Positions 6,936-56,340 of a stretch of DNA of 64,000 nucleotides are shown here, piece by piece. The notes below the pieces were generated by a model, which was given only the letters and a program-made list of their open reading frames with translations, was not told where the DNA came from and did no database searches. The position numbers and the translations under genes are program-made. The first letter of the stretch is position 1, and every line of letters starts with the position of its first letter. The stretch comes from Bacteroidota bacterium (lineage in GTDB: Bacteria > Bacteroidota > Bacteroidia > UKL13-3), in contig JAAFJM010000005.1 of assembly GCA_013298895.1 (NCBI GenBank), positions 1-64,000 on the forward strand, given 5' to 3'.

Positions 6936-7838
6936 ATGCTAAAAATAGCATATACAGAAATATACCAACATTCGTTGCCCGAAGGGCATAGGTTTCCTAT
7001 GCTTAAGTACGAACTTATTCCAAAACAATTATTGTACGAAGGCATCATTACAACTGAAAATTTATTTGAGCCAACATTGTGCAGTGAAGAAAATATTTTA
7101 CTCACTCACGATGTTGAATATTGGCAAAGAATGAAAAACTTGGAACTGACTGAAAGAGAAATGCGCAAAGTTGGTTTCCCACTTTCAGCTCAATTGGTTG
7201 AAAGAGAAATTACCATTATGCAAGGCACAATTGATTGTGCAATGTTTGCTTTACAATATGGTTGTGCCATGAATGTAGCCGGAGGAACACACCATGCATT
7301 TACCAACAAAGGCGAAGGTTTTTGTTTGTTAAACGACATGGCTATTGCTGCCAATTATTTACTCAAAAATAAATTGGCTGAACGCATTTTAATTATTGAT
7401 TTAGATGTGCATCAAGGAAATGGAACAGCCCAAATTTTTCAAAATAATAAAAATGTATTTACACTAAGCATGCACGGTAAAAACAATTATCCGTTTCATA
7501 AAGAAATTTCGGACCTTGATATTGAACTACCTGATGGCATCAATGATGAAGATTATTTGGCTTTATTGTACAATAATTTACCTGCTGTTATCAAAAAGCA
7601 TCAGCCCAACTTTATATTTTACTTATGTGGAGTAGATATTTTGTCTACCGATAAATTTGGGAAGCTGAACGTAACAACTGAAGGTTGCAAACAGCGTGAT
7701 ATTTTTGTTTTCGAACAATGTAAAACAAATAAAATACCAGTGGCTTGTGCCATGGGAGGTGGCTATTCGCCTAAAATAGCTGATATTGTGAACGCCCATA
7801 GTAACACTTTTAAAGCAGCATTTAATTTGTTTGATTAA
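6936..7838 (+). CDS. Histone-deacetylase-family (acetylpolyamine/acetyl-lysine) amidohydrolase
   Basis: This 300-residue protein belongs to the HDAC/AcuC/acetylpolyamine amidohydrolase family. GGTHHA at about 116-121 supplies the active-site His pair, and IIDLDVHQGNGT has the zinc ligands D157 and H159; the third ligand is D234 in CGVDIL. The full set of catalytic residues is present, so it should be an active Zn-dependent deacetylase. Substrates in bacteria vary (acetylated acetyl-CoA synthetase, polyamines) and cannot be deduced here. It is divergent from the pnt operon with about 106 bases between starts, and appears to be a single-gene unit. Confidence 0.92.
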   Translation: MLKIAYTEIYQHSLPEGHRFPMLKYELIPKQLLYEGIITTENLFEPTLCSEENILLTHDVEYWQRMKNLELTEREMRKVGFPLSAQLVEREITIMQGTIDCAMFALQYGCAMNVAGGTHHAFTNKGEGFCLLNDMAIAANYLLKNKLAERILIIDLDVHQGNGTAQIFQNNKNVFTLSMHGKNNYPFHKEISDLDIELPDGINDEDYLALLYNNLPAVIKKHQPNFIFYLCGVDILSTDKFGKLNVTTEGCKQRDIFVFEQCKTNKIPVACAMGGGYSPKIADIVNAHSNTFKAAFNLFD

Positions 7839-8312: not shown

Positions 8313-8894
8313 TTAACGCCTCCAAATTATTGGGGGCGTTTCTATTATATTACTTTGGTTTAAACTTCTATCGTAAATATAAATTGAATAAATAACAGTG
8401 TCTGTATCAAACAATGATTGGCGCTGACTAGGCGATACAGGGATATCTAACTCCAACTCTCCTCTTATGGCCTTATGACGTCCCTCAGGGGTTAAATTTT
8501 GAACCCTAAAGTTATATGCAAATGTATCGGTACTTCCGATTGGAATGTATGGCACAAAAACACCACCTACTTTCTCTTTATAACCTACATAGCAATTGAA
8601 ATAATACTTGTTTAGTGAAGCTTCTGTTAAGGAATCAAAAACTGGGTTAAATGGCGCAAATGTATCACCACTACCTAAGCCAATATCGCCATCTCCATCT
8701 TTAAAACTAAAAACCAGTTTCATAAGCGAATCTTTTCCATCACTTTGTAGGAAATAAACAGAATTATAATCTAATAGAGGAATGTTAGAATATATTTCTT
8801 TTTCTTTGCAGCTATTAAGCAGCAATAAAAAAACAATGGCTGCAAAAGCAAGTTTATTTTTAATGTTTAATACTACCGATTTTATAGAATCCAT
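8313..8894 (-). CDS. Lipoprotein of unknown function
   Basis: This 193-residue protein starts MDSIKSVVLN, has a hydrophobic stretch and a lipobox LLLLNSC at about residues 23-29, so it should be exported and lipidated on Cys29. The rest is beta-rich and contains KDGDGDIGLGSGD, a calcium-loop-like acidic turn that also occurs in other Bacteroidota lipoproteins next to gliding or surface genes. No family is recognised with certainty. The last six codons lie in a hairpin that also ends the acidic protein gene. The only in-frame start is at 8894, so its 5-prime end overlaps the start of the divergent LuxE-like gene by 32 bases. Confidence 0.75.
   Translation of the reverse strand: MDSIKSVVLNIKNKLAFAAIVFLLLLNSCKEKEIYSNIPLLDYNSVYFLQSDGKDSLMKLVFSFKDGDGDIGLGSGDTFAPFNPVFDSLTEASLNKYYFNCYVGYKEKVGGVFVPYIPIGSTDTFAYNFRVQNLTPEGRHKAIRGELELDIPVSPSQRQSLFDTDTVIYSIYIYDRSLNQSNIIETPPIIWRR
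8315..8340. terminator. Hairpin terminator between convergent genes
   Basis: AACGCCTCC (8315-8323) pairs with GGGGGCGTT (8332-8340) over nine base pairs with one T-G wobble and an eight-base loop, followed by TCTATT on the plus strand. It lies inside the last codons of the convergent lipoprotein gene. Confidence 0.75.
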
Positions 8895-9855
8895 TTTTAA
8901 ATCAAATTTAAATAATTTTGATGAACTAGCTTTACAAGCATTTGCTTATCAATTCGAAAATAATGTTGTTTACCAACAATATTGCAAACTTAATAAAATA
9001 CTCGACAAACAAAGTGTTACAGAAGTTGCACAAATACCTTTTTTACCCATACAATTTTTTAAAAACAAACAAATTGTATGTAATAACGAGCCAACAGAAA
9101 TAGTTTTTACAAGCAGCAGCACCTCAGGTACAGGCGAAAGCAGCCATTATGTAACTAATTTAAAAGTTTATAACCAAGCTTTTACTAAAGGCTTTGAACA
9201 ATTTTACGGCAACATAAAAGATTACTGTTTTTTAGCATTACTACCTTCCTACATGGAGCGCAAAGGGTCATCGCTCATATTGATGTGTGATGAATTAATT
9301 AAAGCAAGTAAACATCCACTAAGTAATTTTTATTTACATAATCATCAGCAACTTTTTGAGGTATTAACTGAACTAAAACGCAAAAACCAGAAAACCATTT
9401 TACTAGGTGCAACTTTTGGATTACTTGATTTTGCTGAAAATTTTAAAATAGATTTTCCTGAATTAATAGTAATGGAAACCGGAGGCATGAAAGGCCGCAA
9501 AAAGGAAATAACTCGTTATGAAATACATAGCATTTTACAAAATGGTTTTGGGGTAAATAAAATTCATTCAGAATATGGTATGACTGAACTGTTAAGCCAA
9601 GCATACAGTTATGGAAATGGGCTTTTTGAATGCCCCAATTGGATGCAAGTAAAAATTTCGGATAATACCGACCCTTTTTGTTTTGTGAATGAAAACAAAA
9701 GTGGTGTTTTAAATGTAATTGATTTAGCCAATATTAACTCGTGCTGTTTTATTCAAACACAAGATATTGGAAGAATGAACAATAAAAAACAGTTTGAAGT
9801 TCTTGGCAGACTTGATTTTAGCGATGTAAGAGGATGCAGTTTGTTAACAGTTTAA
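8863..9855 (+). CDS. LuxE-family acyl-protein synthetase / acyltransferase-like enzyme
   Basis: This protein of 330 residues from the ATG at 8863 belongs to the LuxE/PaaK-like adenylate-forming group. The ATP-binding loop reads FTSSSTSGTGESSHY (about residues 85-99), and METGGMKGRKKE plus HSEYGMTELLSQAY further on match the family's nucleotide-binding core. LuxE activates fatty acids as acyl-AMP and transfers them to a Cys; the Bacteroidota homologues are of unknown substrate and often sit near polysaccharide genes. A longer frame is open upstream to 8782, but homologues start at the MFNTTDF-like text and the upstream part overlaps the divergent lipoprotein's signal peptide. The end of the gene is duplicated downstream. 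Confidence 0.87.
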   Translation: MFNTTDFIESIFKSNLNNFDELALQAFAYQFENNVVYQQYCKLNKILDKQSVTEVAQIPFLPIQFFKNKQIVCNNEPTEIVFTSSSTSGTGESSHYVTNLKVYNQAFTKGFEQFYGNIKDYCFLALLPSYMERKGSSLILMCDELIKASKHPLSNFYLHNHQQLFEVLTELKRKNQKTILLGATFGLLDFAENFKIDFPELIVMETGGMKGRKKEITRYEIHSILQNGFGVNKIHSEYGMTELLSQAYSYGNGLFECPNWMQVKISDNTDPFCFVNENKSGVLNVIDLANINSCCFIQTQDIGRMNNKKQFEVLGRLDFSDVRGCSLLTV

Positions 9856-9974
9856 ATTTTGATTTAGTAGCCACAGATTGCACTGAATTATACAGTTAGC
9901 TCTGCGTTTTTCTAAGTTAACTGGGGGAAATTTTGTCAGATTAAAAGATGTAGTTTGTTAACAGTTTAAATTTT
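9833..9974. repeat. 28-bp direct repeats enclosing an 86-bp word-repeat segment
   Basis: Bases 9833-9860 (the last codons of the LuxE-like gene and its stop) recur at 9947-9974 with one C-to-T difference in 28. The copy still reads RCSLLTV and a stop. Between them are 86 bases containing GCCACAGATTGCACTGAATT and CTCTGCGTTTTTCTAAGTT, which look like the degenerate intergenic words common in Bacteroidota genomes. The arrangement resembles a target-site duplication. Confidence 0.7.
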
Positions 9975-10044
9975 ATAAAAATTGTTGAACTTATATCGTA
10001 GCAAATGTTATTTTCGCAACAAATAAATAAAAACATATAAATAA

Positions 10045-11292
10045 ATGGCAGAAGTTATACGCATGCCCAAGATGAGCGATACAATGACAGAAGGAGTTAT
10101 TGTTTCTTGGCTTAAAAATGTGGGCGATGACATAAAACCGGGAGATATTTTGGCTGAGGTAGAAACCGATAAAGCCACCATGGAATTAGAAAATTTTGTT
10201 AAAGGTACTTTGCTTCATATCGGTATTCCTGCCGGTGGCAGTGTTCCTGTTGATGCATTAATTGCTATTGTTGGTCAAAAAGGCGAAGATATTTCTGGTT
10301 TATTAAGCGGTGCTAATGCTGCTGCTCCAACAAAAGCTGAAGAAGCTAAGCCTGAAACAACTTCTCAAAACATTACTGCGAATGTTGAAACAAGCGCAGT
10401 TCATAGTTCAAATAATGAAGATGGCCGTGTAAAAGTATCGCCATTGGCTAAAAAAATAGCAGAAGAAAAAGGTATTTCGTTAAATCAAATTGCTGGCAGT
10501 GGCGATGGCGGACGTATTGTTAAACGCGATGTAGAAACATTTACTCCTGCTAAAACCGCTGCAACTACTAGTAGCGCTCCTGCTATTAATATTCCTGCTA
10601 TGGTAGGAACTGAAAGCTACGATGAAGTTCCCGTTTCGCAAATGCGCAAAGTAATTGCTCGTAGATTGAGTGATAGTTTATTTACTGCTCCACATTTTTT
10701 CCTAACAATGGAAATAAACATGGATAAAGTAAATGAAGCGCGTAAAACCATTAACGCTGACGGTAATGTAAAAATATCGGTTAACGATTTTATAGTAAAA
10801 GCAGTAGCTGGTTCTTTACGCAAAAACCCTCAAGTTAACTCTAGTTGGTTAGGCGATAAAGTTAGGTATAACCACCATATTCATGTTGGAATTGCAGTAG
10901 CTATTGAAGATGGATTGATAGTTCCAGTTGTAAAATTTGCTGATAATAAATCGCTTTCACACATTAGTGCGGAAGTAAAACAGTTGGCAGATAAAGCTAA
11001 AAACAAAAAATTACAACCTAATGAATTTGAAGGAAATACCTTTACTATTTCAAATTTAGGAATGTTTGGAATTGACCAATTTACGGCTATTATTAATCCA
11101 CCTGATGCTTGTATTTTAGCGGTAGGCGGAAGTAAGGAAACTGTAATTGTTGAAAATGGACAAATGAAAGTAGCTACCGTTATGAAAGTAACTTTAAGCT
11201 GCGACCACAGAGTGGTTGATGGAGCTGTAGGAGCTTCCTTCTTAAAAACTTTAAAAGAGTTACTAGAAAATCCAATTAAATTATTGGTATAA
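10045..11292 (+). CDS. pdhC: Pyruvate dehydrogenase complex E2 (dihydrolipoamide acetyltransferase)
   Basis: The E2 core protein (415 residues) has one lipoyl domain at the N-terminus with the modified lysine in EVETDKATMELE (K43), a peripheral-subunit-binding domain around residues 130-165 (VSPLAKKIAEEKGI, GSGDGGRIVKRDV) and a C-terminal catalytic acyltransferase domain ending in SCDHRVVDG with H388 and D392. Linkers are Ala/Pro/Thr-rich as usual. It transfers acetyl groups to CoA. No E1 or E3 gene is adjacent; a fused E1 lies at 32564-34615. The specificity for pyruvate rather than branched-chain acids is inferred from overall resemblance to Bacteroidota PdhC and is not proven. Confidence 0.93.
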   Translation: MAEVIRMPKMSDTMTEGVIVSWLKNVGDDIKPGDILAEVETDKATMELENFVKGTLLHIGIPAGGSVPVDALIAIVGQKGEDISGLLSGANAAAPTKAEEAKPETTSQNITANVETSAVHSSNNEDGRVKVSPLAKKIAEEKGISLNQIAGSGDGGRIVKRDVETFTPAKTAATTSSAPAINIPAMVGTESYDEVPVSQMRKVIARRLSDSLFTAPHFFLTMEINMDKVNEARKTINADGNVKISVNDFIVKAVAGSLRKNPQVNSSWLGDKVRYNHHIHVGIAVAIEDGLIVPVVKFADNKSLSHISAEVKQLADKAKNKKLQPNEFEGNTFTISNLGMFGIDQFTAIINPPDACILAVGGSKETVIVENGQMKVATVMKVTLSCDHRVVDGAVGASFLKTLKELLENPIKLLV

Positions 11293-16011: not shown

Positions 16012-18147
16012 ATGAATAATTCTGAACCAAAAAGATATTTAGTAACAGCTGCTTTGCCATATGCAAACGGACCTGTTCATATTGGCCATTTAGCTGGCTG
16101 TTACCTTCCTGCCGATATTTATGTACGTTATTTAAAAGCACAAGGCAAAGAAGTGCTTTTTATTTGCGGAAGCGATGAACATGGAGTGCCCATTACTATT
16201 AAAGCTAAAAAAGAAGGAATAACTCCTCAGCAAGTGGTTGATAAATACGATGGCATTATGAAAAATGCTTTCAAAGATTTTGGAATAGATTTTTCGTATT
16301 ACGGACGTACTTCCTCAAAAACGCACCACGATACTGCACAAGAATTTTTTAGAACTTTGTACGATAAAGGTGTTTTTAAAGAAGAAATTACCAAACAGTA
16401 TTACGATGAAGAGGCTAAACAATTTTTAGCTGATAGATATATTACAGGCACCTGCCCTCGTTGCGGAAACCCAAATGCTTATGGCGACCAATGCGAAAAA
16501 TGTGGCACTACTTTAAGCCCAACCGATTTAATCAATCCCAAATCGGCTTTGAGTGGTGCAACTCCAGTTTTAAAAGAAACCAAAAATTGGTTTTTACCAA
16601 TGGGCGACATCCAACAAAGTGATGAATTTCAAGAATATATTAAACGTTTTGAAGGCTGGAAAAGTAATATTAAAGGCCAGTGTAGCAGCTGGTTAACCGA
16701 AGGTTTACAGCCACGAGCCATGACCCGCGATTTGGATTGGGGTGTTCCAGTTCCGATTGATGGTGCCGATGGAAAAGTATTATATGTTTGGTTTGATGCT
16801 CCAATTGGATACATAAGCGCTACGAAAGAATATTTGCAGCTAGCAGCTAGCAACTGGCAACTAGCAAATACAGGCGATAGGCCAGAGGCTAGCGGCCAGA
16901 AGCCAGCAGCTTTCGAAGATTGGTGGCAAAACGATGAAACCGCATTGATTCATTTTATAGGTAAAGACAATATTGTGTTTCATGCTATTATTTTCCCTAT
17001 GATGTTGATGACACATGGCAAGTTTATTTTACCAACCAATGTGCCTGCTAACGAGTTTTTAAACCTAGAAGGCGATAAAATTTCGACCAGCCGCAATTGG
17101 GCAGTTTGGTTACATGAGTATTTAGTTGACTTCCCTAACCGTCAAGATGAATTGCGTTATGTTTTAACCAGCATTGCACCAGAAACAAAAGACAGTGAGT
17201 TTACTTGGAAAGATTATCAAACTCGTGTAAACAGTGAACTGGTAAGTATTTTCGGCAATTTTGTAAATCGTGTTTTGGTGCTAAGCAATAAATTTTACGA
17301 AGGTAAAATTCCAGCCATAACTAGCGCTTTAACTGATGAAAGATTATTGACTTGCCGCCAAACTTGTTTGGATAGTATTGCTCAAAGTTTACATGCTATG
17401 CGCGAAGATTTAGATGCAGTAAAACTGCGCGATGCACAAGCTGAATTTATTAACGTAGCCAGAGCTGGAAATAAATATTTGGCCGATACTGAGCCTTGGA
17501 AATTGATAAAAACCGATGCTGAAAGTGTTAAACAAATTATGTTTGATGCTCTGCAAATTTGCGCCAAATTAGCGATTGCAGCGGAACCATTTTTACCACA
17601 TACTGCTACTAAATTAAAAGCCATGTTAGCTGCTAACGATTTGCATTGGAGTTCATTATTCAACGAAAATATTTTAAAGGAAAATCGTCAGTTGGGAACT
17701 GCTGAAATTTTATACAAACAAGTGGAAGATGAAGAAATTTTAAAACAACTTACTCGACTTGAAAACATAAAAATAGCTAACATCCAACAGCCAGAAGCTA
17801 GCAGCCTTAATGAGGTAAAAGCGGATATTACTTACGAAGATTTTGAAAAATTAGACTTAAGAGTGGGTAAAGTTTTAGAAGCTGAAAAAGTGCCAAAAGC
17901 TGATAAATTATTGAAACTAATTGTAGATTTAGGTTTTGAAAAACGCACCATTTTGAGTGGCATTGCAGAATATTATCAACCTGAAGAATTAGTTGGCAAA
18001 TTAGTTACAGTTGTAGCCAACTTAGCTCCTCGCAAAATACGTGGAATTGAAAGCCAAGGCATGCTTTTAATGGCAGGTAATGATTTTGGAAAACTTTACA
18101 GCGTAGGCCCTGAAAAAGACATAGAAGTAGGAAGTGTAGTAAAATAA
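16012..18147 (+). CDS. metG: Methionine-tRNA ligase
   Basis: MetRS (711 residues) charges tRNA-Met with methionine. The HIGH-type motif is VHIGHLAG at residues 22-29; the zinc knuckle reads CPRCGN and CEKCG; the KMSKS-equivalent is [10 protein letters not shown]. An anticodon-binding helical domain follows, and a C-terminal tRNA-binding OB-fold begins at about residue 605 ([20 protein letters not shown]). Two stretches do not look like MetRS: about 17 extra residues after EYLQ (near 278-300), coded by CTAGC-rich repeat DNA, and a short QPEASS insertion in the linker before the OB-fold. Both are in frame and the enzyme core appears intact. Confidence 0.97.
16836..16910. repeat. In-frame intergenic-type repeat inside metG
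   Basis: The stretch is built of words such as GCAGCTAGCAGCTAGC, AACTGGCAACTAGC and GGCCAGAAGCCAGC. The 13-mer GCCAGAAGCCAGC (16895-16907) recurs in reverse complement behind cysS at 49122-49134. It encodes an extra loop of about 17 residues between conserved MetRS blocks IGYI and WWQNDE. A shorter related piece, CAGCCAGAAGCTAGCAGC, lies at 17788-17805 in the linker before the OB-fold. Confidence 0.65.
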
Positions 18148-37877: not shown

Positions 37878-37909
37878 AAATAAAATATTATTTTATGTTT
37901 TCAATGATT

Positions 37910-38102
37910 CGTCTGACGCCTTGCCATCCAAAAGCCATCACGCAATCGTCTGACGAACGTTCTGCAATTTATCAGTCTGACGCCATCCCTTTCTGATACT
38001 AACATGCAATCATATAACAGGAGTACTGTATATAATCCGTCTGACGCCTTGCCACCCAAAAGCCATCCCGCAATCGTCTGACGGATGTTAAGCCCTAATC
38101 AC
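37910..38102 (+). repeat. REP-like array: CGTCTGACG palindromes with 64-bp period
   Basis: The palindrome CGTCTGACG occurs at 37910, 37947, 38038 and 38075, and as AGTCTGACG at 37974. Spacing follows a 37/27 pattern, giving a 64-base period. The first and third units match closely (CCTTGCCAYCCAAAAGCCATC). The middle one keeps GTCTGACGCC and GCAATC but is otherwise decayed. The third unit runs into the stop codon of the carboxylase gene (38088-38090). Confidence 0.8.
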
Positions 38103-47652: not shown

Positions 47653-49119
47653 ATGGATTCTACTTTAAAAATATACAATACTTTAACCCGAACTACCGAA
47701 GATTTTAAACCCATTCACGAAGGCCATATAGGCATGTACGTTTGTGGACCAACAGTTTATAGCAATGCGCATTTAGGCAATGCACGTACTTTTATTTCGT
47801 TCGATGTCATTTTTCGTTACTTTTTACATTTGGGTTACAAAGTGCGCTATGTGCGTAATATAACCGATGCTGGACATCTGGAAAGTGATGCTGATGAAGG
47901 CGAAGATAAAATTGCTAAAAAAGCAAAATTGGAACAACTAGAACCAATGGAAATTGTACAACGTTACACCATTGATTTCAGGGAAACCATGCGCATGTTC
48001 AATACTTTGCCGCCAAGCATTGAACCTACCGCTACTGGTCATATAATTGAACAAATAGAAATGACCAAACAGATAATAGCCAATGGTTATGCTTATGAGG
48101 AAAATGGTTCTATTTATTTTGATGTAGAAAAATTTACCAAAGAATATAATTACACCATTTTATCTAACAGAAACTTAGATGATTTATTAAATGGCACGCG
48201 TGATTTAGATGGGCAAAATGAAAAACATGGCCGTTTAGATTTTGCACTTTGGATAAAAGCAAAACCTGAACATATCATGAAATGGCCAAGTCCGTGGGGA
48301 GTTGGTTTCCCGGGTTGGCACTTAGAATGTTCGGCCATGAGTAGTAAATATTTGGGAAATGAATTTGATATTCATGGTGGTGGAATGGATTTAATTCCTA
48401 CACATCATACCAACGAAATTGCACAGAATTTGGCTTGCCATAAAACGCAACCTGCTCGTTATTGGATTCATACCAATATGTTGACAGTAAATGGTCAAAA
48501 AATGAGCAAAAGTTTAGGTAATTCGTTTTTACCAAATGAGTTATTTTTTGGTAATCATAAACTGTTAGATAAAGGGTACAGCCCAATGACGGTGCGCTTT
48601 TTCATGTTGCAAGCACATTACCGTAGCACGTTAGATTTTAGCAACGAAGCATTGCAAGCAGCCGAAAAAGGTTTTGCAAGACTAATGAACGCCATGAAAT
48701 TGATTGATGGTTTAAAAGTATCAGAGCTATCAACCATCAACCTTCAACCAACAACTAATGATATTTACAATGCTTTAAACGATGATTTTAATACACCAAT
48801 TGCCATAGCAAGTATTTTTGAAGCGGTGCGAATGATTAATTCTATTAACGATGGCAAAGAAACCATCAATGAAACTGACAAAGTTAGTTTGAAAAAATTG
48901 ATGACAGAAATAGTTTTTGATGTATTGGGTTTACAAGAAGAAAATAATACAGATAACAGCAAAGTGGATGGCTTAATGAACATGATTATTGAACAAAGAA
49001 ACCATGCAAAAATGAACAAAGATTTTGCTACCAGTGATGCCATCAGAAACAAATTAAAAGAGATTGGTTTTGAAATAAAAGATGGTAAAGATGGAACGAG
49101 TTATAGTGTGATTAATTAG
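47653..49119 (+). CDS. cysS: Cysteine-tRNA ligase
   Basis: CysRS (488 residues) charges tRNA-Cys. The first zinc ligand and HIGH equivalent are in VCGPTVYSNAHLGNART; WHLECSAMSSKYLG and GGMDLIPTHHTNEIAQ give the other zinc ligands; NGQKMSKSLGN is the KMSKS loop. The linker before the anticodon-binding domain (residues about 360-368, STINLQPTTN) is coded by TATCAACCATCAACCTTC-type repeat DNA that occurs elsewhere between genes. Otherwise the length and order of domains are normal. Confidence 0.97.
   Translation: MDSTLKIYNTLTRTTEDFKPIHEGHIGMYVCGPTVYSNAHLGNARTFISFDVIFRYFLHLGYKVRYVRNITDAGHLESDADEGEDKIAKKAKLEQLEPMEIVQRYTIDFRETMRMFNTLPPSIEPTATGHIIEQIEMTKQIIANGYAYEENGSIYFDVEKFTKEYNYTILSNRNLDDLLNGTRDLDGQNEKHGRLDFALWIKAKPEHIMKWPSPWGVGFPGWHLECSAMSSKYLGNEFDIHGGGMDLIPTHHTNEIAQNLACHKTQPARYWIHTNMLTVNGQKMSKSLGNSFLPNELFFGNHKLLDKGYSPMTVRFFMLQAHYRSTLDFSNEALQAAEKGFARLMNAMKLIDGLKVSELSTINLQPTTNDIYNALNDDFNTPIAIASIFEAVRMINSINDGKETINETDKVSLKKLMTEIVFDVLGLQEENNTDNSKVDGLMNMIIEQRNHAKMNKDFATSDAIRNKLKEIGFEIKDGKDGTSYSVIN
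48727..48756. repeat. Intergenic-type word repeat inside cysS
   Basis: CTATCAACCATCAA (48727-48740) is the exact reverse complement of 39723-39736, upstream of the carboxylase gene. CAACCAACAACT (48745-48756) also occurs at 39771-39782 and 55462-55473. The stretch is read in frame as a linker. Confidence 0.7.
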
Positions 49120-49121
49120 CG

Positions 49122-49358
49122 GCTGGCTTCTGGCTCCTGGCAATTGGCAATGAGCAATATGCAAAAAAGATACAACTTTGCTTAAAATAATAAACGCAAA
49201 GTGCACAAAGAAAAAACGCAAAGAACACTAAGAAAATCTTTGGGTCCATCGCGAAAACCCTTTGCGAACTTTGCGGTTAAAAAAATCGCAATAGCCACAA
49301 AGAAATAATTAAAAACTTAGCGCTCTTCGCGAAAAACCTTTGAGAACTTTGCGGTAAA
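49122..49358. repeat. Composite word-repeat stretch between cysS and the PIG-L gene
   Basis: It starts with GCTGGCTTCTGGC (49122-49134, shared with metG) and CAATTGGCAA, then AACGCAAAG-type words. Two copies of a 32-base unit, TCGCGAAAACCCTTTGCG ... ACTTTGCGG at 49249-49281 and TCGCGAAAAACCTTTGAG ... ACTTTGCGG at 49327-49358, lie 78 bases apart. No gene is present in 49120-49371. Confidence 0.7.
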
Positions 49359-49371
49359 ATTTAAATAAAAT

Positions 49372-53623: not shown

Positions 53624-53695
53624 TTATTGTTATAATTTTTAATGGGGGCGAAAATAAGGTTTTGTTTTAAAACTCTAACTATTTATTGTTTAAAT

Positions 53696-54018
53696 TCATT
53701 TTAAGCCTTTTTTGGGAGGTGAGAGGTGAGAAGGGGATTGTGAAAAGTGAGATGTTAGTTGTGAAAAGTGAGATGAGAAATGTGAAATGAGAGTTGGGAC
53801 AGAGCACTAAGTTTTGAGAGTTGAGCACTGAGAAGTGAGAAAGGAGAGTTGAGATGAAAGATTTGGGAATTGAGAGAAAAAAATTTGCAATTTGCAATAG
53901 ACAATTGGCAAGGCGTATTGCTTACAATTCAAAAACCAACAATTTAACAATACAACAATTTAGCAATTCAGCAATAAAATCTTTAAATCAACAAATCTCC
54001 AAATCAATAAATTCAAAA
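53696..54018. repeat. Low-complexity GTGAGA-rich and CAATTTAACAA-rich word repeats
   Basis: The 53,700-53,880 part repeats variants of GTGAGANNTGAGA and GTGAAAAGTGAGATG on the plus strand. The 53,880-54,018 part has TTGCAATTTGCAAT, CAATTGGCAA, CAACAATTTAACAATAC and AAATCTCCAAATCAATAAA (53993-54011); the last 19-mer recurs in reverse complement at 5263-5281. No gene is supported in 53624-54020. Confidence 0.75.
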
Positions 54019-54020
54019 AG

Positions 54021-55313
54021 CTAAACAAACATCTCTTCTTGCTCTTTGTCTAAATCTTCTTTGTCTTGGTCTAACTGGCGTTTAACCAAAAGTTGCAAAG
54101 CAGGGCCAGCCATAACCGAAGTTACTACAGCCATAATAACTATAGCCACAAACAGTTTCTGATTAATTAATCCTGCTTGTAAAGCCAATAATGCTAAAAT
54201 AATTTCCATAGCACCTCGGGCATTCATTCCAAAACCTACTGCTAAACTTTCTTTTTTGGTTAAACCACCCCATAAAGCACCTAATCCTGCTCCTAATAGT
54301 TTACAAATTACCGCAATAATTAATACCAAAGCAGTCACCTGGAAATCGAAATTAGCAATAAAATTTACCTTAAAACCAATGGAAACAAAAAATAATGGTG
54401 CAAAAATATTGGTAACAAACTGATTTACTATTTCGCGGGTTTTTTCGGTTAAATGAACGCTATCTCCAAAAGCAATACCCACTATAAATGCACCAAAAAT
54501 GGCATGAATGCCAATAAATTCGGTAAAGGCTGCACCTAAAAATGCCAAACCTAACGAAATACTTAAAAATCCTCCCGGCCAGCTAAAGTTTTTTTGTGCC
54601 CATGGCAATGATTTATTGATAATTATACGGCCAGCTGTAAGCATGGCAACTGAATAAAGGATGGTTAAACCTAAAGTGTAAATAAAGCCATGAGCGCCTG
54701 TGTCGGGTTTCATCATGCCTAAAATTACCGAAAATAACAACCAACCAATAATATCATCAAACATGGCTGCGGCTATTATAATCATGCCAACTTTGGTTCT
54801 AAACAAACCTAAGTCCATTAATGTACGCGCTATAATGGGCAATGCCGAAACTGCCATAGCTGTTCCAAAAAATAAGCTGAATAAAATTAATTGGGTATGC
54901 GAATTATAGTTTTCTCCAAATAATGGAAACTGATAATAAGCTACTAAAAAACCCAATCCTAAAGGAATAATTAATCCTAAAAAGCTGGTTTTTAAAGCTG
55001 TTTTGCCTTGCTGGCGAATAATGGATAAATCAACTTCCATACCTGCCACAAATAATAACATAATCACTGATATAGAAGTAATGCCATTAAACGCAATAGC
55101 CGAATTACTTTCTTTATTTAAAACCAAATTACTTACCTGCGGAAAATATTGACCTAATAAACTTGGCCCTAAACAAATACCCGCCACCAACTCACCAACT
55201 ACCAATGGCATTTTGAATTTCCTGAAAAACTCACCCACAAGCCTTGCCACAATAAGCAGTATGCCTAAGCTTAATATTAAACTTATGGTTTCGTGGTGGT
55301 TTAAGGTTTTCAT
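54021..55313 (-). CDS. Kef-type cation:proton antiporter
   Basis: This 430-residue CPA2-family antiporter has 12 to 13 hydrophobic segments, including MPLVVGELVAGICLGPSLLG near the N-terminus and GIHAIFGAFIVGIAFGDS later, as in KefB/KefC and other Na+(K+)/H+ exchangers. There is no C-terminal RCK/TrkA domain; the protein ends in a charged DQDKEDLDKEQEE tail, so regulation by NAD or glutathione is unlikely. A universal stress protein gene lies upstream on the same strand, a common pairing in Bacteroidota. Confidence 0.93.
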   Translation of the reverse strand: MKTLNHHETISLILSLGILLIVARLVGEFFRKFKMPLVVGELVAGICLGPSLLGQYFPQVSNLVLNKESNSAIAFNGITSISVIMLLFVAGMEVDLSIIRQQGKTALKTSFLGLIIPLGLGFLVAYYQFPLFGENYNSHTQLILFSLFFGTAMAVSALPIIARTLMDLGLFRTKVGMIIIAAAMFDDIIGWLLFSVILGMMKPDTGAHGFIYTLGLTILYSVAMLTAGRIIINKSLPWAQKNFSWPGGFLSISLGLAFLGAAFTEFIGIHAIFGAFIVGIAFGDSVHLTEKTREIVNQFVTNIFAPLFFVSIGFKVNFIANFDFQVTALVLIIAVICKLLGAGLGALWGGLTKKESLAVGFGMNARGAMEIILALLALQAGLINQKLFVAIVIMAVVTSVMAGPALQLLVKRQLDQDKEDLDKEQEEMFV

Positions 55314-55329
55314 TTGGGGTTATTTATTG

Positions 55330-55475
55330 ATTTTTGACTTGTTGATTTGGAGTCACGCAAGGCGTGATTGATTGTTAAATTGTTTTATTGTTATTTTCCC
55401 TTGTTGTCTATTGTTTAGTTGCCTATTGCCTATTATCCATCGTCTATCAACTAACAACTGTCAACCAACAACTAT
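55330..55475. repeat. Word-repeat stretch between the antiporter and the stress protein gene
   Basis: It holds TTGTTGATTTGGAG, CCTATTGCCTATTATCC and CAACTAACAACTGTCAACC. The last part includes CAACCAACAACT at 55462-55473, shared with cysS and with the stretch upstream of the carboxylase. Confidence 0.6.
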
Positions 55476-55479
55476 AAAA

Positions 55480-56340
55480 CTAAACCCCATCTTCATTAAC
55501 CAATAATAAATTACAAGGTAAATCGGCTAAGGCAAATTCAATATCAGTTGGAAAAACACGGTCAATTAAATTTAGTTTTCTATCAGGCGAGTTTAGTACC
55601 AATAAATCTGCTTCGTTTTCGCGAGCATATTTGGTAATTACATAACCTGGTTTGCCTTCTATACGTTCTACATTTACTTTTAAGCCGCCACAATCGTTGC
55701 AACTTAAAATGTATTCTAGTTTTTTATTTTCTTCGCTAATTAATTGCTCTTTGTGATGTGCCATTTCATTTTCTTTAAACTCATCGCTGCGTATTAAAGC
55801 GGCTTTGCTTAAATCTGTTTCTTGTATTACATCTACATATTTTACATCAAAAGCTTTGGCTATTTCAATGGCTTTAGCAATGGTGTTAACTGTTTTTGGA
55901 TTATCAGAACCTTCAACTACTATGCGTTTTAAAGGGTTTGATTCTATCATAGGTTCAGTAAGCATTAACATGCTGCATTTTACCCTGCGGCTTAATTTAC
56001 GGGCCACACTACCCATAAAATATTTTATTAAACTTTCTTTTTCTAAGGCACCTGCTACTAATAAATCAAACTGCTCATCTTCGCATATTTGTAAAATAGT
56101 TTCAACAGGTTCTCCTTCGCGCCAAATTAATTGCGAGTTGGTTAAATTGTATTTATCAAAAAGTTCATTTAATGTTTTTTCGTCTTCAGCACTTTGTTTT
56201 CCAACATGGATAAAAAACAAGTTGGATACAAATCCTTTTTGCATTTTAGAAGCTTCAGCTATAATAGCCTCAAGCCTTGGCGAAAAAGCAATGGCTATTC
56301 CAATTTTTTTAAAAATTAATTCTTTTGTCTCTGCACTCAT
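55480..56340 (-). CDS. Universal stress protein (tandem UspA domains)
   Basis: This 286-residue protein holds two UspA-like domains of about 140 residues. The first has KIGIAIAFSPRLEAIIAEAS and the loop LLVAGALEKESLIKYFMGSVARKLSRRVKCS, close to but not fully matching the ATP-binding G-x2-G-x9-G(S/T); the second is more degenerate (ADLLVLNSPDRKL). It probably works with the antiporter downstream, 166 bases away, since the pairing recurs in the phylum. Function is not known in detail. Confidence 0.87.
   Translation of the reverse strand: MSAETKELIFKKIGIAIAFSPRLEAIIAEASKMQKGFVSNLFFIHVGKQSAEDEKTLNELFDKYNLTNSQLIWREGEPVETILQICEDEQFDLLVAGALEKESLIKYFMGSVARKLSRRVKCSMLMLTEPMIESNPLKRIVVEGSDNPKTVNTIAKAIEIAKAFDVKYVDVIQETDLSKAALIRSDEFKENEMAHHKEQLISEENKKLEYILSCNDCGGLKVNVERIEGKPGYVITKYARENEADLLVLNSPDRKLNLIDRVFPTDIEFALADLPCNLLLVNEDGV

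Follow-up and report, generated by a model that had tools for sequence, protein, structure and literature searches.

Duplicated gene end behind a LuxE-like gene

The window analyzed here is a 64,000-nucleotide stretch of a contig from a Bacteroidota bacterium (genome G000). In this window, the end of a gene for a LuxE-like acyl-protein synthetase is followed by a short segment of repeat text and then by a second copy of the same gene end. The features of the locus, with positions counted from the first base of the window, are:

8782-9855, + strand: LuxE-like acyl-protein synthetase gene, 3′ end duplicated (longest open reading frame; PF04443, E 9.6e-14)
9833-9860, + strand: proximal copy of the 28-bp repeat, including the final codons of the LuxE-like gene and its stop (same sequence in G003)
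9861-9946, + strand: 86-bp insert of degenerate CAGATT/CTGCG repeat text (not in G006)
9871-9926, + strand: core of the insert, CCACAGATT...CTGGGG, a decayed imperfect inverted repeat of the CCACAGATT...ATCTGCGG type
9893-9934, + strand: stretch that contains every G000/G003 difference (8 in total) found across 9802-10095 (random-placement test)
9947-9974, + strand: distal copy of the 28-bp repeat, non-coding, 27 of 28 bases identical
10045-11292, + strand: intact gene for the dihydrolipoamide acetyltransferase of the pyruvate dehydrogenase complex (PF00198, E 5.4e-87; TIGR01349, E 2.3e-148)

The duplicated 28 bases comprise the last codons of the LuxE-like gene, its TAA stop codon (9853-9855, inside the proximal copy) and five further bases. 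A repeat search of the window placed the direct repeats GATGCAGTTTGTTAACAGTTTAAATTTT and GATGTAGTTTGTTAACAGTTTAAATTTT at 9833-9860 and 9947-9974, respectively, with a spacing of 114 bases and a single C/T mismatch between them. The initial annotation had described a repeat of the gene end 114 bases downstream with repeat text in between, and this description was accurate (27 of 28 bases matched, with 86 bases of repeat text separating the copies). LuxE-like homologues were detected in all 40 genomes searched, and positions 8881-9852 were used for comparison of this gene with relatives. Neither the LuxE-like frame nor the downstream gene is disrupted, so the change was probably neutral.

The CAGATT and CTGCG words of the insert are arranged in an order resembling that of a decayed inverted repeat, and the G003 version of the insert is a cleaner CAGATT/CTGCG text (CCACAGATTGCACTGAATTATATTGATAGCTCTGCGTTTTTCTGCGTTATCTGCGGG). 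No second cluster of these particular words was present elsewhere in the window. A full-length copy of the insert was not detected elsewhere in G000 and, across ten genomes of the genus, occurred in G003 alone. A search of the genus for a donor of the insert found none, the best partial matches being generic repeat words. Folding of the insert copy was no better than that of shuffled sequence (z -0.21), leaving a stable hairpin unsupported, and we therefore make no claim of a working hairpin.

Other origins of this arrangement could be rejected. A chance match of 27 out of 28 bases was ruled out by the flanking direct-repeat score, which was 25 here compared to a best score of 9 in 77 comparable elements. 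An assembly artefact was ruled out by the separate genome G003, which carries the same duplication, insert and C/T difference. In addition, the duplication does not extend beyond 28 bp, as similarity upstream was not significant (p 0.43) and none was found downstream.

The locus in related genomes

Comparison with a relative lacking the insert had been proposed in the initial annotation, and G006 is such a relative. Its LuxE-like protein is 95% identical, and the gene ends in a single 28-mer (the T variant), which runs straight into the sequence that follows the distal copy in G000, so that the flanks are contiguous. G003 contains both 28-mers and the insert as in G000, with a LuxE-like protein that is 96% identical. 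Among the relatives compared, none had the duplication without the insert. The more distant congeners G002, G008 and G009 showed no interruption at the exact insertion point and carried a different CAGATT text approximately 35 bp downstream of it. In G001 and G007, repeat text begins almost immediately after the end of the LuxE-like gene, and in G005 no repeat text was present at the locus.

A tree based on 6,945 aligned columns from six concatenated loci grouped G000 with G003 to the exclusion of G006 (bootstrap 100). Informative sites at the insertion locus itself were tied (6 vs 6), leaving the tree undecided there. As the concatenated tree fully supports the G000/G003 pair, a single gain with duplication in the ancestor of the two is the simplest history. 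The tree and the contiguous outgroups favour the empty state as the ancestral one in these sequence comparisons. We also considered a decayed duplication of the gene end around the repeat text of the outgroups; it was faint in G008 (p ~0.02) and not significant in G001, G002, G007 and G009.

The repeat text evolves faster than its surroundings. G000 and G003 differ at 8 positions in the 86-base insert, all of which fall within 42 bases, and such clustering was never equalled in random placements (0 of 20,000).

Repeat text elsewhere and alternative histories

In the stretches compared, 59 indels (≥25 bp) distinguish G000 from G003, G006 or G009. Only the indel at the LuxE-like locus has a long flanking repeat of unique sequence; two other high-scoring indels were 7-mer tandem expansions near 55.4 kb. 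Repeat-text clusters elsewhere in the window and the contig differ between relatives without flanking duplications. Spanning repeats were detected at 12 of 90 repeat sites in the genus versus 0 of 66 control sites, and on inspection these were mostly tandem duplications that had taken in repeat text. Repeat text was duplicated in tandem together with its flank at L312, L235, L321, L317, L264 and L259. At L312, two units of repeat plus terminator-like hairpin are present in G009 and one unit in G004 and G008. This locus, with an exact 22-bp repeat, was considered as a second target duplication and rejected, as alignment with G003, G004 and G008 revealed an older tandem duplication. At L235, G001 contains a 97-bp duplication whose counterpart in G004 (L225) is a single copy.

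Because such duplications are frequent in the genus, the main rival to insertion is a tandem duplication of the gene end together with repeat text, followed by loss of one repeat copy, which would leave gene end, repeat and gene end. The repeat text that almost abuts the gene end in G001 and G007 also speaks for this history. However, the sequence past the distal 28-mer contains neither a further repeat copy nor a remnant of one in either G000 or G003, and two steps are required, with G006 having lost everything or never having had any of it. We regard this origin as unlikely, although it remains the strongest competitor.

Insert and duplication could also be older, in which case the 28-bp repeats would have recombined, or replication slipped from one to the other, in the G006 lineage, restoring a perfect single copy. 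Deletions of this type, between short direct repeats that enclose an imperfect palindrome, arise easily and are well known. Such a deletion predicts the G006 sequence exactly, and the 28-mer of G006 carries T, as the distal copies do. Given the tree, however, this history needs two events rather than one, and no clear second 28-mer was seen in the outgroups, where the faint signal in G008 was the only trace; it appears rather improbable. Both of these alternatives, the tandem duplication that later lost a repeat and the loss in G006, are less likely than insertion with duplication.

Repeat text was also observed at other positions of this contig and genus. Intergenic clusters at 49118-49359, 53681-54080 and 55301-55480 of the window, and at 65391-65500 and 71121-71290 of contig C45, have texts or lengths that differ in relatives and lack unique flanking duplications. 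The gene for methionyl-tRNA synthetase (metG) contains in-frame repeat text at 16830-16920, and relatives have other texts of other lengths at the same point. In the cysteinyl-tRNA synthetase gene (cysS), repeat-like text is present at 48720-48760 in G000, G006 and G009, and other sequence of equal length occupies this site in G001, G003 and G005. Three 64-bp units with CGTCTGACG ends were found at 37904-38089 in G000, and G009 has one unit.

More broadly, an intact palindrome of the form CCACAGATTnCACAGATT...AATCTGTGnAATCTGTGG was detected in a scan of many phyla that used one genome per species. Among the matches listed, it occurred in Bacteroidota, Alphaproteobacteria, Cyanobacteria, Chloroflexi, Planctomycetota, Acidobacteria and others, and it is nearly identical across many unrelated phyla (L087-L166). 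No flanking duplication was found at the edges of the 77 intact copies among the matches listed, for which the best direct-repeat score was 9. Inverted symmetry extending into the flanks (score of at least 9) was observed for 15.6% of these 77 palindromes versus 2.6% of permuted controls. Spanning repeats in the many-phyla set, again among the matches listed, occurred at 4 of 76 sites versus 6 of 316 controls. Viral contigs contained no exact match to the palindrome, and a literature search found no paper in which the CAGATT repeat text is printed.

One case from a different phylum, which emerged once the flanks considered were extended, resembles the LuxE-like locus. In a Verrucomicrobia genome (G040, contig C774, L133), a 77-bp intact palindrome at 7221-7293 lies between two 74-bp copies of a gene end (95% identical); judging from its translation, the open frame with the duplicated end looks like a dehydrogenase. 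The other palindrome copies in this genome that could be delimited had no flanking repeat. On the same 11-kb contig, the palindrome occurs at least six times, in full or in part, and a neighbouring dehydrogenase-like frame has repeat-like text inside.

The G000 locus and the Verrucomicrobia case could be taken to indicate that the repeat text is a mobile element whose long-stagger integrase always duplicates about 28 bases. This is very improbable: the flanking-repeat score never exceeded 9 in the 77 palindromes among the matches listed, other copies in the Verrucomicrobia genome are without repeats, the two duplications are unequal in length (28 and 74 bases), no gene is associated with the text and viral contigs lack it as an exact match. 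As a general rule, a mobile element with a constant duplication of about 28 bases is largely refuted.

Unequal recombination of diverged alleles from two species, only one of which had repeat text after the gene, is hardly credible. It would fit the one-base difference between the 28-mers, the duplicated L235 unit in which one copy has clearly diverged further from its relative than the other copy has, and the G000-G006 divergence of 38/576 to the left versus 20/571 to the right of the insert. However, a donor allele was not found, and the left-right gap is also present, less strongly, in other pairs (27 vs 17 and 21 vs 15) and therefore mostly reflects the two genes.

Insertion with target-site duplication, as had been suggested from the sequence of the window, thus fits this locus, where long repeats flank the insert, G006 is empty with one copy and the outgroups are uninterrupted. 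The broader suggestion, that the locus directly records the way in which these repeats spread, failed almost everywhere by a test that the initial annotation had itself set: flanking duplications were found neither at the other clusters nor at the edges of the 77 palindromes from many phyla among the matches listed.

Possible mechanism and comparison with known elements

The duplication and insert shared by two related species, G000 and G003, are real and fit a small insertion event that duplicated its target. Such an event best explains the locus; as a general mode of repeat spread it is unsupported. We infer, with somewhat better than even confidence, that the insert was gained and the 28 bases were duplicated in one event in the G000/G003 ancestor, through accidental repair or replication and with no dedicated transposase. 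In this event, 86 bases of CAGATT-type repeat text would have been gained directly behind the LuxE-like stop codon, together with duplication of the 28 bases at the site. Nicks on opposite strands, 28 bases apart, may have been filled in on both sides with capture of a copied piece of repeat text. Alternatively, replication may have switched templates into repeat text and then resumed 28 bases upstream, so that these bases were copied again. Both routes would yield gene end, insert and gene end, and are indistinguishable from these data. Ku was not found in G000, G003 or G006; classical bacterial end joining is therefore unlikely, and the fill-in route would need another joining path. It is doubtful that CAGATT text moves in general by capture into staggered breaks, with the 28-bp and 74-bp cases being recent ones in which the duplication has yet to be lost.

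There was no sign of a dedicated enzyme for repeat movement. The target duplications that DDE insertion sequences typically make are shorter than 28 bases. Bacterial MITEs, including Rickettsia palindromic elements, resemble the CAGATT text in being short, partly palindromic, non-coding and mostly intergenic, with no genes of their own. Neither fixed terminal inverted repeats nor a parent insertion sequence was found for the CAGATT text, and the insert shows a decayed inverted repeat. Unlike MITEs, the CAGATT text is degenerate and variable between copies, and lacks a regular target duplication (0 of 77 intact palindromes among the matches listed and none at other clusters), whereas in MITEs the younger copies carry flanking direct repeats left by duplication of the target (PMC10969869).

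REP/REPIN elements, which are moved by Y1 (RAYT) transposases, are likewise many-copy intergenic palindromic repeats, and the clade has Y1 transposase genes. However, no CAGATT words were present within approximately 1.5 kb of these genes at seven of the eight clade loci examined, the exception being L243, with one word about 1.3 kb away. Y1 transposition is not known to make target duplications. The Y1 transposase locus L237 of G000 (1250-2100) is flanked by a different palindrome, GGGTTAAAACCCATT / GGGCTAAAGCCCAT, which is likely a REP-type family.

Staggered nicks and fill-in also create the duplications of 1 to 27 bases made by casposons, and duplicate the whole repeat in CRISPR arrays (PMC4046053). 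Cas1-type integration is similar to the first of the above routes in this respect and differs in that the insert is repeat text, with neither casposon nor spacer; Cas1 was absent from G000 and G006 and present in G003. The small dispersed repeats of cyanobacteria, very small mobile repeated elements that citing papers attribute to Elhai et al. 2008, are reported to be similarly tiny and intergenic and to come and go between relatives, but have another sequence and occur in other organisms.

Repeat texts like CAGATT occupy intergenic sites in unrelated phyla, and few loci allow the gain of a repeat to be followed base by base through comparison with an empty relative. The locus described here shows that a repeat segment can come with a long duplication and then evolve faster than its surroundings. 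A long duplication is not the usual signature of these repeats, which argues against simple transposition and toward repair, copying errors and tandem duplication.
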